Positions 15,958 to 25,165 of a stretch of 25,165 nucleotides of DNA are shown piece by piece. The DNA is from a virus. The stretch is from IMG/VR virus record IMGVR_UViG_3300046370_000237, positions 1-25,165 of that record; one strand, given 5' to 3'. Under the pieces are notes generated by a model. It had not been told where the DNA came from and made no database searches. It saw only the letters and a program-made list of their open reading frames with translations. Within the stretch, counting starts at the first letter, position 1. Each line of letters begins with the position of its first letter. The position numbers were made by a program, and so were the translations under genes.

Positions 15958-15982
15958 AAGGGGCCTTCGGGCCTCTTTTTTT
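15958..15982 (+). terminator. rho-independent terminator ending the first rightward gene chain
   Basis: Eight-pair stem AAGGGGCC / GGCCUCUU (one G-U pair) closed by a UUCG loop, followed by UUUUU. It begins 4 bases after the stop codon of the preceding gene. The UUCG tetraloop recurs in the terminators at 7274-7298 and 17664-17695. Confidence 0.9.
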
Positions 15983-16037
15983 ATACCAACGCTGGCTAAC
16001 GACGTGCCACTTGTGCCGTGACCCAACGACGTGCAGG

Positions 16038-16342
16038 TGTGTGTCATGTGTGTCACCTTCCGAAATTACATGGCACACAATTTGGCACACACTTAACTCG
16101 TTGATTCCATTAACAAAAGCACCAAATGTGTGCCATGTGTGACATGTGTGTTTACATTTTTCAACTTCGTTTTTTTACAAGTGTGTTTTTTTGATTTTTT
16201 GTTTAGGTCTAATAGACCCCTAAAATCATGACACACATGGCACACATTTCACTTTCTCTAGGCTAATCAATAACTTAGCCCTAATTCTAGGTGGCACACA
16301 ATCTGGCACACACCCACCGCTAGCTGGCACACATGGCACACA
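16038..16342. repeat. array of twelve 9-bp units in six pairs: candidate replication origin or operator array
   Basis: Inside the gene-free stretch 15983-16406. The unit is TGGCACACA or a one-to-two-base variant (TGACACACA, TGTCACACA). Reverse-strand units: 16038-16046, 16047-16055, 16127-16135, 16136-16144. Forward units: 16071-16079, 16083-16091, 16229-16237, 16238-16246, 16292-16300, 16304-16312, 16325-16333, 16334-16342. Every pair has 9- or 12-base spacing. Between pairs three and four is a T-rich tract (about 16150-16205), with a dyad GGTCT-AAT-AGACC (16206-16218) next to it, and a second dyad GGCTAA/TTAGCC (16261-16280). Iterons plus AT-rich DNA is an origin-like layout. Two AACGACGTGC repeats lie just left (15998-16007, 16025-16034). 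Confidence 0.75.
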
Positions 16343-16406
16343 TCTATTCGCTTCGCTCATAGAAGTCGGTGGTATTTGTACATTCAATTACTTTTAGGAA
16401 TACGTT

Positions 16407-17068: not shown

Positions 17069-17656
17069 ATGACCAATTTTGACGCATCACAATCATTCAT
17101 CCCCGCCGCTGCTGCTGCACTGTCTGGCCGTTCTGGCAAGAAAGCCAAGCTAGCCAAACACATCGACAACTTTGAAGGTGACTTCGAGGATCGAGTGTTT
17201 CAAGCATACGCGCTGTCATTCGACGAGGACGCTACTTACTACCCCATTCAGATTCTTGGCTACGTGCAGGATCTGATGGACAAGGTTTGCTGGAACGCAC
17301 GTCGCGTACTCAAAAGCTATCACCTACCCGAAGAGGTGTACGGCTGCGACCCCACGGAGAAAGCTCGCGAGGAGACTGGTGTCTCTGTCGATGTAGAGCA
17401 TATCCAAGACGTGGTCGATGCTGACTTCAATACCCTCTACGTGATGACAGCAAACATGTTGCAGTGCGAAGAGGGCCTTGACTTCGAGTTGCACTACTTC
17501 AACCCATCTGAAGTCGTCGATGACGAGTGGGTTGAGGAGCGTACTTGCGACAGTTTCAGCGATGCCCAGATCCAGATGGATGACATCGTTGACAAGCTCA
17601 ACACCGTGAACCCAGTCGACGCTCTCGCTGCCATGCGAAAGCGTGCAGCCGCGTAA
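17069..17656 (+). CDS. acidic hypothetical protein, 195 aa
   Basis: ORF starting MTNFDASQSFIPAAAAALSG. A short Lys-rich segment (GRSGKKAKLAKH, about 20-31) is followed by an acidic body rich in Asp, Glu, Val and Tyr (for example FNTLYVMTANMLQCEEGLDF), ending in a helix NPVDALAAMRKRAAA. It has its own strong terminator (17664-17695) and the best ribosome site of the neighbourhood, inside an inverted repeat, so it is probably a highly and separately expressed transcript. I recognise no family. An abundant early acidic protein such as a host-protein inhibitor or single-strand-binding-like protein are possibilities, but no OB-fold signature is clear. Confidence 0.8.
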   Translation: MTNFDASQSFIPAAAAALSGRSGKKAKLAKHIDNFEGDFEDRVFQAYALSFDEDATYYPIQILGYVQDLMDKVCWNARRVLKSYHLPEEVYGCDPTEKAREETGVSVDVEHIQDVVDADFNTLYVMTANMLQCEEGLDFELHYFNPSEVVDDEWVEERTCDSFSDAQIQMDDIVDKLNTVNPVDALAAMRKRAAA

Positions 17657-19953: not shown

Positions 19954-20172
19954 ATGTCAGAGATATTCGTCAAAGTCGGCAAAGTCCCTGGAGCCACAAC
20001 CGAGGTGGTTTTGGAACAGGGCGCTACTGTCGCTGAAGCGTTATCCGCTGCAGGCATTGAGATCGGCAGCACCACTGAGATTAAGCTCAACGGTGCAGCA
20101 GTTTCACAGAGCGATGTGCTCGGTGACAACTCACGTCTCATCGTCAGCGATGGCGCTAAAGGCAACGGCTAG
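19954..20172 (+). CDS. ubiquitin-like modifier (MoaD/ThiS-type beta-grasp), 72 aa
   Basis: A 72-aa ORF starting MSEIFVKVGKVPGATTEVVL. The pattern is the beta-grasp: two strands (FVKVGK, TTEVVL), a helix after GATVAEALSAAG, strand TEIKLNG, short turn AVSQSDVLGDNS, and last strand RLIVSDGAKGNG. It ends in Gly, as needed for adenylation by an E1; the ending is G-N-G rather than the usual G-G. MoaD or ThiS for cofactor synthesis would end in GG and be next to cofactor genes, which are missing here. Followed by an E1-like, a JAB and an E2-like gene, so it is probably the modifier of that pathway. Confidence 0.85.
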   Translation: MSEIFVKVGKVPGATTEVVLEQGATVAEALSAAGIEIGSTTEIKLNGAAVSQSDVLGDNSRLIVSDGAKGNG

Positions 20173-20181
20173 ACCCTACCC

Positions 20182-20232
20182 ATTCGGCCATATCCCGAAT
20201 CACGTTCCCCGTCCGTGAGGCCAACGACGGGG
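20182..20232 (+). other. two small hairpins between Ubl and E1 genes
   Basis: ATTCGG/CCGAAT (20182-20200, 7-base loop) and CCCCGTC/GACGGGG (20207-20232, 12-base loop). The second is G:C-rich but followed by GTTCCTTTC, not a proper U-tract. They could reduce E1 levels relative to the Ubl, which is normally needed in larger amounts. Confidence 0.5.
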
Positions 20233-20260
20233 GTTCCTTTCAACCTGACTTGGAGGTCGT

Positions 20261-20947
20261 ATGCTATCAACCATACGCCATGACTCTGTGTTCCGTGCAT
20301 ACGATTACAAGGATTATCCAATCCATGTTGTCGGTGCCGGTGCTACTGGCTCGCGTGTCTTCATGTCACTTGTGGAGTTGGGCCTGACCAACCTGCATGT
20401 GTATGACTTCGACATCGTGGAGCCACACAATCTCGCTAACCAAGCGTACCTGCACCACCACATTGGCTTGCCCAAAGTCAAAGCGCTGCAGAACCTAGTG
20501 TCTCTCAAGCTCGGCGTGCCTGAAGACCAGCTGCCAATGCGCTTCATCAATGAACGTATTGACCAGCGTCAATTCGATGGCTTCCTGTTCTTGTTGACAG
20601 ACACGATGGCGTCTCGTCGCAAGATCATGGAGTCGCAGAACACAGGTGCCGACAGCATGTTGCTGCATGTGTTCGAGACACGCATGGCTGCTGCTCACGG
20701 CAACATCTACCACTTCTCCCCCGTCAACAAATCACAGCGCGATGCTTGGTTTGGTTCGCTCATCAGCGATGACGAGGGCGAAGTTTCTCTATGTGGTACC
20801 AGCATCTCTGTCGGTGCCACTGCCTCACTCATCGCAAACCTTGCGGTGTGGGAATTCATCAACTTCTTACTGGATGACGGCTGCGCTACAGCGCAACTCG
20901 ACGTCTTCTTCAAACCCATGTTGCTTTGTGCCAAGGAGGCTATATGA
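20261..20947 (+). CDS. E1-like ubiquitin-activating enzyme (ThiF-fold adenylation domain), 228 aa
   Basis: ORF starting MLSTIRHDSVFRAYDYKDYP, with TGGAGG before the ATG. It carries the E1/ThiF signature in order: glycine-rich ATP loop VVGAGATG (about 23-30), D49 and D51 in YDFDIVEPHNLANQ, K72 in GLPKVKA, D114 in LLTDTMASRR, and a closing helix CGTSISVGATASLIANLAVW at about 178-197 corresponding to the G-x-x-G helix before the end of MoeB/ThiF. C178 is the best candidate for a thioester Cys. The usual zinc-binding Cys pairs of MoeB/ThiF are missing and there is no extra domain, so this is a minimal E1. It would activate the C-terminal Gly of the Ubl with ATP. Its stop overlaps the JAB start (ATGA). 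Confidence 0.93.
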   Translation: MLSTIRHDSVFRAYDYKDYPIHVVGAGATGSRVFMSLVELGLTNLHVYDFDIVEPHNLANQAYLHHHIGLPKVKALQNLVSLKLGVPEDQLPMRFINERIDQRQFDGFLFLLTDTMASRRKIMESQNTGADSMLLHVFETRMAAAHGNIYHFSPVNKSQRDAWFGSLISDDEGEVSLCGTSISVGATASLIANLAVWEFINFLLDDGCATAQLDVFFKPMLLCAKEAI

Positions 20948-21738
20948 GCAAAGTTACTTACTGGTCGCAAAAGTCAGCGAGTTTCGACAGTTCGTCGATG
21001 ACAGCTGAGACCACACAGTTATTTGACTACGACTACCCTGACCCACCGATTGTTTATTACACGCCCGAGGTGGCCGCATCCATCGACTATCTTGTGCAGC
21101 AAGTCGGCACAGAGATTGGCTGGCTTGGCACTGTCGATCAATGCGAAGAGACCGGTAACTTCGAGGTCACTCAAATCTTTGTGCCCAAACAAGAAGTACA
21201 TGGTGCCGAGACGGACATCGATGCCGAAGCCATCTGTGAACTAGCGGTTCAGCTGGAAGAGCAAGGCATTGAGTCTGACAAGCTCATCTACTGGGGCCAC
21301 TCTCACGTCACAATGGGCGTCACGCCATCAGGGCAAGACGAACAACAGATCGAAGAGTTCTTGGAGAACGGCTGCAAGCAGTTCATACGTGGCATCTACA
21401 ACAAACTCGGTGACAGCAAAGTCGATGTGTATGACGTCGATAGCAACTGCGTACACCAGTGTGTCAAGAACATGGTGCGTCCGCAGCCTATGGCTGATGC
21501 GACTAAAAAACATCTCGACTCGCTCATCAAGCAGAACGTCAAAACCAAAAAGTACAAGCCGGTGGTCAAGGCCGCAGCGGGGTCAACGCTGGGAAAGTAC
21601 CCAGCCCAGCAGTCAATGTTCAACAGTCAAAACTATCCCGTCTATGGTCATACATACCCAAGCTACATTGATTACTACGATGCTGAGCGCGATGAGTACA
21701 ACGACAACATCAACAACCCTTGGTATTTCGAGGAGTAA
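20944..21738 (+). CDS. JAB/JAMM isopeptidase (Ubl processing or deconjugation), 264 aa
   Basis: Start at ATG 20944 (MSKVTYWSQK) with AAGGAGG at 20933-20939; the frame is open 6 codons further. The MPN/JAMM motif is complete: E57 in GTEIGWLG, then H119-x-H121 in YWGHSHVTMG and, at the canonical seven-residue spacing, S129 and D132 in TPSGQD. So a zinc-dependent protease of the RPN11/AMSH/JAB1 type, presumably active. The first 40 residues are Ser/Tyr/Asp-rich; the C-terminal about 65 residues are Tyr/Asn/Pro-rich and may be disordered. Acting next to a Ubl and an E1, it should cleave Ubl from targets or trim a Ubl precursor such as that at 19533-19877. Confidence 0.95.
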   Translation: MSKVTYWSQKSASFDSSSMTAETTQLFDYDYPDPPIVYYTPEVAASIDYLVQQVGTEIGWLGTVDQCEETGNFEVTQIFVPKQEVHGAETDIDAEAICELAVQLEEQGIESDKLIYWGHSHVTMGVTPSGQDEQQIEEFLENGCKQFIRGIYNKLGDSKVDVYDVDSNCVHQCVKNMVRPQPMADATKKHLDSLIKQNVKTKKYKPVVKAAAGSTLGKYPAQQSMFNSQNYPVYGHTYPSYIDYYDAERDEYNDNINNPWYFEE

Positions 21739-24090: not shown

Positions 24091-25165
24091 ATGTTAGTAA
24101 CACTCGACTTCGAGACGTACTTCGATACGAAGGTCAGCCTGACCAAGATGACGACGATGGAGTACATCAAGCACCCTATGTTCAAAGTGTGGGGTGTCGG
24201 TATCAAGATCGACGACGGCCCAACCGAATGGTTTGGTGAAGACGAAGTCGAAGATGTCATTGATGACATCGACTGGGAGAAGGCACACCTGTTGTGCCAC
24301 AACACATCCTTCGACGGCTACATACTGACCCAGCTGTATGACGTGCGGCCTATGTACTACCTCGACACCGCAGCCATGTCGCGTGGGTGGTGGCCTGGGG
24401 AATCAGCATCGTTGAAAGAGACAGCCATACGCTGCTTTCCAGCAGACGATACCATGCGTAAAGGCGAGGAATTGGTAACAGCCAAAGGCACCTATGACCT
24501 GCCGCCTGACATCGAAGACATTATTGCAGACTACTGTATCCAAGACGTTGACCTGACTTACGCCATCTATCAGCAGTTGCTGCCTGACTACCCACAAAAA
24601 GAACTGGATCTCATTGATCTGACGTGCCGAATGTTCTGTGAGCCACGCCTGCATGTAAACACAGACAAGCTCGAGACATTTGTAGAGCAGGTACAAGCAG
24701 AATCAAAAGAGGCGATAGAGAACTCAGGACTGGAGCGTGCTGTGCTTGCCAGCAACAAGCAGTTTGCAGAGTGGGCTACGGAGCAGGGACTCACGGTGCC
24801 GGTAAAGAAAAGCCCTACTACCGGCAAGATGATACCGGCGCTCGGCAAAAACGATGCAGGCTTTCGCCAGTGGCAGGATCAAAACCCTGAGTACGCTCAC
24901 GTCTTTACAGCCAGAGAAGCAGTAAAGAGTCGGCTCAATGAAACAAGGGCACAGCGTTTCATCAACTGTGCCGGTGCGTGCGGCGGAAAGCTCCCCTCCC
25001 CCCTTCGCTATTACGCTGCGCACACCGGCAGGTTCGGTGGAACTGACAAGATTAACCTGCAGAACCTGCCTCGTGGCAGTCAGCTGCGCACAGCCTTAGA
25101 GGCACCCCCAGGTCACTATCTGTACGTTGCTGACCTATCGCAGAGTGAGGCACGAGTGTTGGCAT
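24091..25165 (+). CDS. DNA polymerase family A with 3'-5' exonuclease (cut by window edge)
   Basis: Open from ATG 24091 to the right edge, 358 residues. The exonuclease domain shows D6 and E8 in LDFETY, HNTSFDG with D75, and Y148 to D152 in YCIQDVDLT, so all exonuclease residues are there. Further on comes RYYAAHTGRFGGTDKINLQN plus LPRG, the fingers/thumb region of family A, and at the very end motif A YVADLSQSEARVLA with D348. Motifs B and C lie outside the window. This is the replicative polymerase of the phage. The start follows directly the stop of the 69-aa gene. Confidence 0.95.
   Translation, partial: MLVTLDFETYFDTKVSLTKMTTMEYIKHPMFKVWGVGIKIDDGPTEWFGEDEVEDVIDDIDWEKAHLLCHNTSFDGYILTQLYDVRPMYYLDTAAMSRGWWPGESASLKETAIRCFPADDTMRKGEELVTAKGTYDLPPDIEDIIADYCIQDVDLTYAIYQQLLPDYPQKELDLIDLTCRMFCEPRLHVNTDKLETFVEQVQAESKEAIENSGLERAVLASNKQFAEWATEQGLTVPVKKSPTTGKMIPALGKNDAGFRQWQDQNPEYAHVFTAREAVKSRLNETRAQRFINCAGACGGKLPSPLRYYAAHTGRFGGTDKINLQNLPRGSQLRTALEAPPGHYLYVADLSQSEARVLA

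Follow-up and report, generated by a model that had tools for sequence, protein, structure and literature searches.

A symmetric array of short repeats in a gene-free stretch of phage DNA is quite probably the phage replication origin, opened by an SF3 primase-helicase that would bind the repeat units with the help of IHF. The array lies in an IMG/VR record 25,165 bp long, analysed here at its full length (the window); the record covers part of the genome of a ~55-kb phage from a large uncultured marine family. The initial annotation had proposed a candidate replication origin resembling plasmid iteron origins. The origin reading is supported by the layout, which is kept across a divergent family, by the AT-rich core, by conserved IHF sites and by the company of PolA and an SF3 primase-helicase. 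The likeness to iteron origins stands, but an SF3 primase-helicase probably acts as the initiator, so that the closest models are the origins of SaPI elements and P4, not plasmid Rep origins.

Twelve 9-bp units arranged in six pairs occupy positions 16038–16342, all of them where the initial annotation had placed them, and the pair spacing it described is correct as well: the unit positions give a 9-bp step in four pairs and a 12-bp step in two, each at most 1.5 bp off a helical turn. Units start at 16038, 16047, 16127 and 16136 on the minus strand and at 16071, 16083, 16229, 16238, 16292, 16304, 16325 and 16334 on the plus strand. Eight are exact copies of TGGCACACA, three read TGACACACA and one reads TGTCACACA; the consensus TGRCACACA describes 11 of the units, the remaining one being a TGT variant. 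This consensus has 11 matches in the 25,165 bp of the window, all within the array and none elsewhere, and 100 dinucleotide shuffles of the window gave a mean of 0.72 matches and a maximum of 4. Several short, near-identical direct repeats, characteristic of iteron origins, are present here as 12 units in six tandem pairs. The features of the array and its surroundings are as follows:

15958–15985, plus strand: intrinsic-terminator-like hairpin with a T run, which parts the upstream plus-strand genes from the array
16038–16055, minus strand: pair 1, outer left, two copies of TGACACACA at a 9-bp step; many aligned arrays have this outer left arm
16071–16091, plus strand: pair 2, two copies of TGGCACACA at a 12-bp step (unit positions, shuffle test)
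16094–16106, minus strand: left IHF consensus site AATCAACGAGTTA, matching WATCAANNNNTTR
16127–16144, minus strand: pair 3, inner left arm, TGGCACACA and TGTCACACA at a 9-bp step
16145–16228, no strand assigned: AT-rich core, T-rich on the plus strand, 72.6% AT, a probable unwinding element
16229–16246, plus strand: pair 4, inner right arm, TGACACACA and TGGCACACA at a 9-bp step, inverted relative to pair 3
16265–16277, plus strand: right IHF consensus site AATCAATAACTTA, a perfect consensus match
16292–16312, plus strand: pair 5, two copies of TGGCACACA at a 12-bp step (unit positions, shuffle test)
16325–16342, plus strand: pair 6, outer right, two copies of TGGCACACA at a 9-bp step (unit positions, shuffle test)
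24091–25164, plus strand: N-terminal part of DNA polymerase A (PolA), cut by the record end, 97% identical to the PolA of the relative G014

Instead of loose repeats, the array consists of inverted arms arranged symmetrically. The two inner pairs, 3 and 4, repeat each other in inverted orientation (23 nt, 96% complementary) around the 84-bp core; pair 3, which is among the best-conserved parts of the aligned arrays, is followed by a degenerate third unit at 16145–16153. The GC content of the whole window is 51.3%, and by composition the core fits the adjacent AT-rich unwinding region that iteron origins have. Both dyads reported earlier in the middle of the array exist, but that at 16206–16218, GGTCTAATAGACC, is not kept in most relatives. 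The second dyad (GGCTAA...TTAGCC, 16261–16280) overlaps a perfect IHF consensus that had been missed. The strict IHF consensus, WATCAANNNNTTR, has only two matches in the 25-kb window, one per array flank, which places predicted IHF sites beside the putative unwinding region. Just left of the array is an exact 10-bp direct repeat, AACGACGTGC, at 15998–16007 and 16025–16034.

Arrays of the same kind were found when other phages were searched for the TGRCACACA unit. Two pattern scans of viral contigs yielded 96 loci, 66 of them distinct, and arms and core were delimited in 64 of the 66. Their cores are 71–121 bp long and lie between inverted arms; the mean AT fraction over the 64 arrays is 0.70 in the core, 0.52 in the rest of the array and 0.49 in the flanks. 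The position of the array is constant among relatives, with inverted tandem pairs on both sides of the AT-rich core. The strict IHF consensus occurs 40 times in the 20.2 kb of the 66 arrays and 31 times in 578 kb of surroundings, being 37-fold denser in the arrays; these counts do not amount to 66 independent observations, because some arrays come from close relatives, and the enrichment is clear in its effect size. At least one strict site is present in 33 of the 64 delimited arrays (left of the core in 27, right of it in 13); many arrays of the core family have no strict match, and the group-2 arrays have none.

TerL relatives without TGRCACACA carry another word in the same place, for example 12 copies of CCTGTTACA in G008. 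The replacement words in TerL relatives are CCTGTTACA, CCTGCTACA, CCTGCAACA, CTGTGACA, TTGGAACAA, CTGGTACAA, CTGCACACA, CGCGCACAA and GGACACACA, and additional relatives contribute TGGTACACA, TGGAACACA and TGTCACACC; aligned by their right end, nearly all unit words have the form NNNX-ACA. The copies change word together while position, arms and AT-rich core remain constant, as is expected of the sites of one cognate DNA-binding protein. Phages of a second lineage (group 2: G019, G022–G025), which have a different TerL, combine TGRCACACA arrays with PolA and a DUF5906 protein. In the cultured phage KPP25, twelve TCGTRACA units at 26,394–26,825 form inverted tandem pairs flanking an AT-rich core; no strict IHF consensus was found in this stretch. 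A paper on phage CRPAP1904 makes no reference to a replication origin. Aeromonas phage phiA008, which encodes a homologous helicase, has an intergenic AT-rich region that contains an IHF consensus (L393:2690–3240), and no obvious unit array appears in the part that was read.

Left of the array, the minus strand carries terminase, P22-like portal and capsid genes, and right of it the plus strand carries small early genes. The first larger gene after the array (17069–17656) encodes an acidic protein with no family match, which is found in all array classes tested and is often just ~30% identical between phages. The near-identical relative G014 (98% in TerL) continues beyond PolA into the SF3 primase-helicase, and PolA followed by the SF3 primase-helicase (DUF5906) is the order in the relatives, according to PolA and DUF5906 matches. 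Three relatives map as circles of 55–56 kb because their contig ends overlap, at different places. In these circles the block of early genes extends ~17 kb to the right of the array, with PolA at ~7 kb and the helicase at ~9 kb, then a PD-(D/E)XK nuclease and an SNF2 helicase; structural genes occupy the remainder on the opposite strand. A turn of the GC skew at 16,000–16,400, raised in the initial annotation as a possible sign of an origin there, is absent from the window, where the skew merely flattens. In the three circular relatives, the skew tracks the gene strand, is weak in two of the three and does not mark the array beyond this strand effect. Nucleotide searches with the array and with the whole window against named phages gave no match.

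The candidate initiator is the SF3 primase-helicase. The window ends before its gene, and for this reason the sequence was taken from the near-identical G014; the replicon-encoded protein matches DUF5906 with an E-value of 2.4e-19. DUF5906 was found in 20 of the 25 array-bearing records and in 3 of 19 controls, the controls being records in which the pattern hit only an isolated pair or a few units, and the five array records without it are fragments of 14–37 kb. By helicase, the nearest cultured relatives are Pseudomonas phages KPP25, phiR18 and CRPAP1904 (30.8% identity over 95%). A search of the genome collection with the helicase gave no bacterial match, and its matches among plasmids were confined to the helicase core. 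NCBIfam primase_Cterm (P4 family) matches the protein below threshold. The predicted structure (830 aa, pLDDT 83.5) is similar, according to Foldseek, to NrS-1 CTR (E 5.8e-22), poxvirus D5/E5 and SaPI5 PriRep1 (E 7.8e-8). In this model the last ~105 residues are predicted to follow the order helix–strand–helix–helix–strand–wing–strand, which is that of a winged helix. The isolated C-terminal model has no significant match in the PDB (best Z 4.1), and many of its weak matches are winged-helix proteins.

Covariation of the unit with the helicase C-terminus is suggestive only. Among 21 phages for which both the unit and the helicase are known, unit identity correlates with divergence of the helicase tail with a partial r of 0.23 (permutation P 0.005, phylogeny ignored) and with divergence of the winged helix with a partial r of 0.13 (P 0.09, phylogeny ignored); the other helicase domains show no correlation in the same permutation test of the 21 phages. 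A rule by which a single residue of the helicase C-terminus specifies X in the unit (Arg with X = C, Gln with X = T) was right for L301 and was dropped because it failed for L363 and L270. A gene of ~60 aa between PolA and the primase-helicase seemed to track the unit class and was also set aside: it encodes a CsrA homologue (NCBIfam csrA E 1e-9, under its cut-off; L218:8993–9172 in G002) and is found in nearly all relatives.

By analogy with studied initiators, the array may work as follows. A protein of the D5/NrS-1/SaPI5-Rep type, which has DUF5906 as its helicase core and whose gene lies ~9 kb rightward, shortly beyond the end of the record, would recognise the 9-bp units, probably by means of the winged-helix domain predicted at its C-terminus. 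It would fill the inverted arms, that is, the two inverted 18-bp tandem pairs that flank the ~84-bp AT-rich core, and the outer pairs would supply extra binding sites. IHF would bend the DNA on both sides and so bring the arms together; the core would melt, one helicase ring would load per arm, and the primase and PolA would begin synthesis. Replication would probably be bidirectional, since a helicase ring would load at each arm. IHF helps origins to open, and the pSC101 origin requires it (PMC4980987). Counting against the origin reading are the missing skew turn, the helicase gene lying ~9 kb off, the weak covariation between unit and helicase, the isolated C-terminal model with no significant PDB match and the many arrays without a strict IHF site.

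The main rival is a dense operator, in which the units would be bound by a phage regulator of early transcription or of lysogeny and IHF would serve as an architectural cofactor. The array sits between genes, with a terminator before it and a run of plus-strand early genes after it; paired sites near a helical turn would suit regulators too, and some relatives have genes for an HTH_3 regulator and an integrase. However, a search for sigma-70-type promoters gave no match in or near the array, G003 keeps the array although an HTH_3 gene and an integrase were not found there, and an operator has no need of inverted symmetry about a 70% AT core. We consider an operator unlikely. Slightly less likely still is an origin bound by another phage protein, such as the early protein of 17069–17656, with the SF3 helicase loaded secondarily. 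The place of this gene as the first larger one after the array, its presence in every array class tested and its fast divergence would suit such a binder; its product, however, is acidic and has no DNA-binding domain match, and its divergence is about equal between same-unit and different-unit phages. It was set aside as the unit-binding protein.

A packaging site (pac/cos) bound by the small terminase is improbable. Lambda cosB likewise combines repeats with an IHF site, and in the main family the array is ~2–3 kb from terL. However, TerS identity follows phylogeny and not the unit (72% for G008, with a different unit; 65% for G012, with the same one), the KPP25 array is more than 4 kb from terL, and the overlapping assembled ends of the three circular relatives fall at different places. 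A parS-like centromere of a phage persisting as a plasmid is very improbable: box repeats with IHF resemble in outline P1 parS, which has an IHF site and repeated boxes, and some relatives show no integrase, but a search of 11 array-bearing records found no ParB_N domain (PF02195), which gives a ParABS centromere no support, and six relatives do have an integrase.

The preferred reading, an origin opened by the SF3 primase-helicase, can be compared with several known systems. SaPI Rep and Cch2 of SCCmec use their C-terminal domain to recognise origin iterons. Both are regarded as helicases that load themselves, and SaPI Rep appears to act as two hexamers (PMC7581432). SaPI5 PriRep1, SaPIbov1 Rep and Cch2 resemble the proposed phage origin in pairing a self-loading initiator helicase with multiple short iterons, and the fold of SaPI5 PriRep1 is matched by the predicted phage helicase. 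However, SaPI origins lie just downstream of rep, whereas in the phage the helicase gene lies ~9 kb downstream of the array, and the phage differs further in its inverted 18-bp tandem pairs, flanking IHF sites, ~55-kb genome and own PolA. P4 alpha, like the phage candidate, unites primase and helicase in one protein, and its origin repeats are bound via a winged helix (PMC4234260); its primase is of the Toprim type, for which the phage protein gave no match, and its repeats differ.

The closest solved helicase structure to that of the phage is NrS-1 PrimPol. Directly after the SF3 primase-polymerase gene, NrS-1 has 11 GTTACACTT units containing TTACAC (L395:17060–17400), one of which overlaps the published primase recognition site TTTGGTTA; its authors propose primase recognition sites as the origin (PMC8718748, PMC7102993). 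Unlike the phage helicase, PrimPol is itself the replicative polymerase, and its repeats directly follow its gene, which the phage array does not; conserved inverted 18-bp pairs and IHF sites are features of the phage and are not established in NrS-1. Iteron plasmid origins with IHF (pSC101, R6K, P1) share iterons, an AT-rich unwinding region and an IHF site with the array. They use plasmid Rep initiators, DnaA and a host helicase, whereas the phage encodes its own SF3 helicase and has pairs inverted on both sides of the core. The Kochitakasuvirus phages (KPP25, phiR18, CRPAP1904) have a homologous helicase and a 12-unit inverted-pair array around an AT-rich core, differing in the TCGTRACA unit and in the greater distance from terL.

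Iteron origins and SF3 initiators are known already; new here are the symmetric inverted-pair layout with IHF sites, its conservation throughout a family of uncultured phages and the replacement of the unit words. We know of no identified replication origin in most uncultured phages. The architecture is recognisable and allows the putative origin to be placed by sequence, both across a large family of marine phages and among culturable Pseudomonas phages. We suggest tentatively that a family-wide origin has kept a fixed architecture while its 9-bp word (NNNX-ACA) was repeatedly replaced, which might give co-occurring marine phages mutually exclusive origin–initiator specificities. If this is true, these would be comparable to plasmid incompatibility groups, and word replacement could be driven by competition or by origin-hijacking satellites. 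What causes the unit word to change is a question that the arrays raise, and the replaced words would be a natural data set on how the DNA specificity of SF3 initiators changes.

Two further observations concern other parts of these genomes. Short repeats, TAAGCCTA, lie ~49 bp upstream of terL in L019, L152, L153 and L155, and CTAAAGCTAA repeats lie beside the terL start in G010 (46843–46900); both are possibly related to packaging. In the window, at 19954–21738, the gene of a small beta-grasp protein with a weak ThiS/ubiquitin-like match adjoins a gene encoding a ThiF/E1-like protein (Pfam E 4e-18). A third protein there, which has no Pfam match, contains, as judged by eye, an HxHx7SxxD stretch typical of JAB/JAMM proteases, and the three genes may represent a phage ubiquitin-like system.
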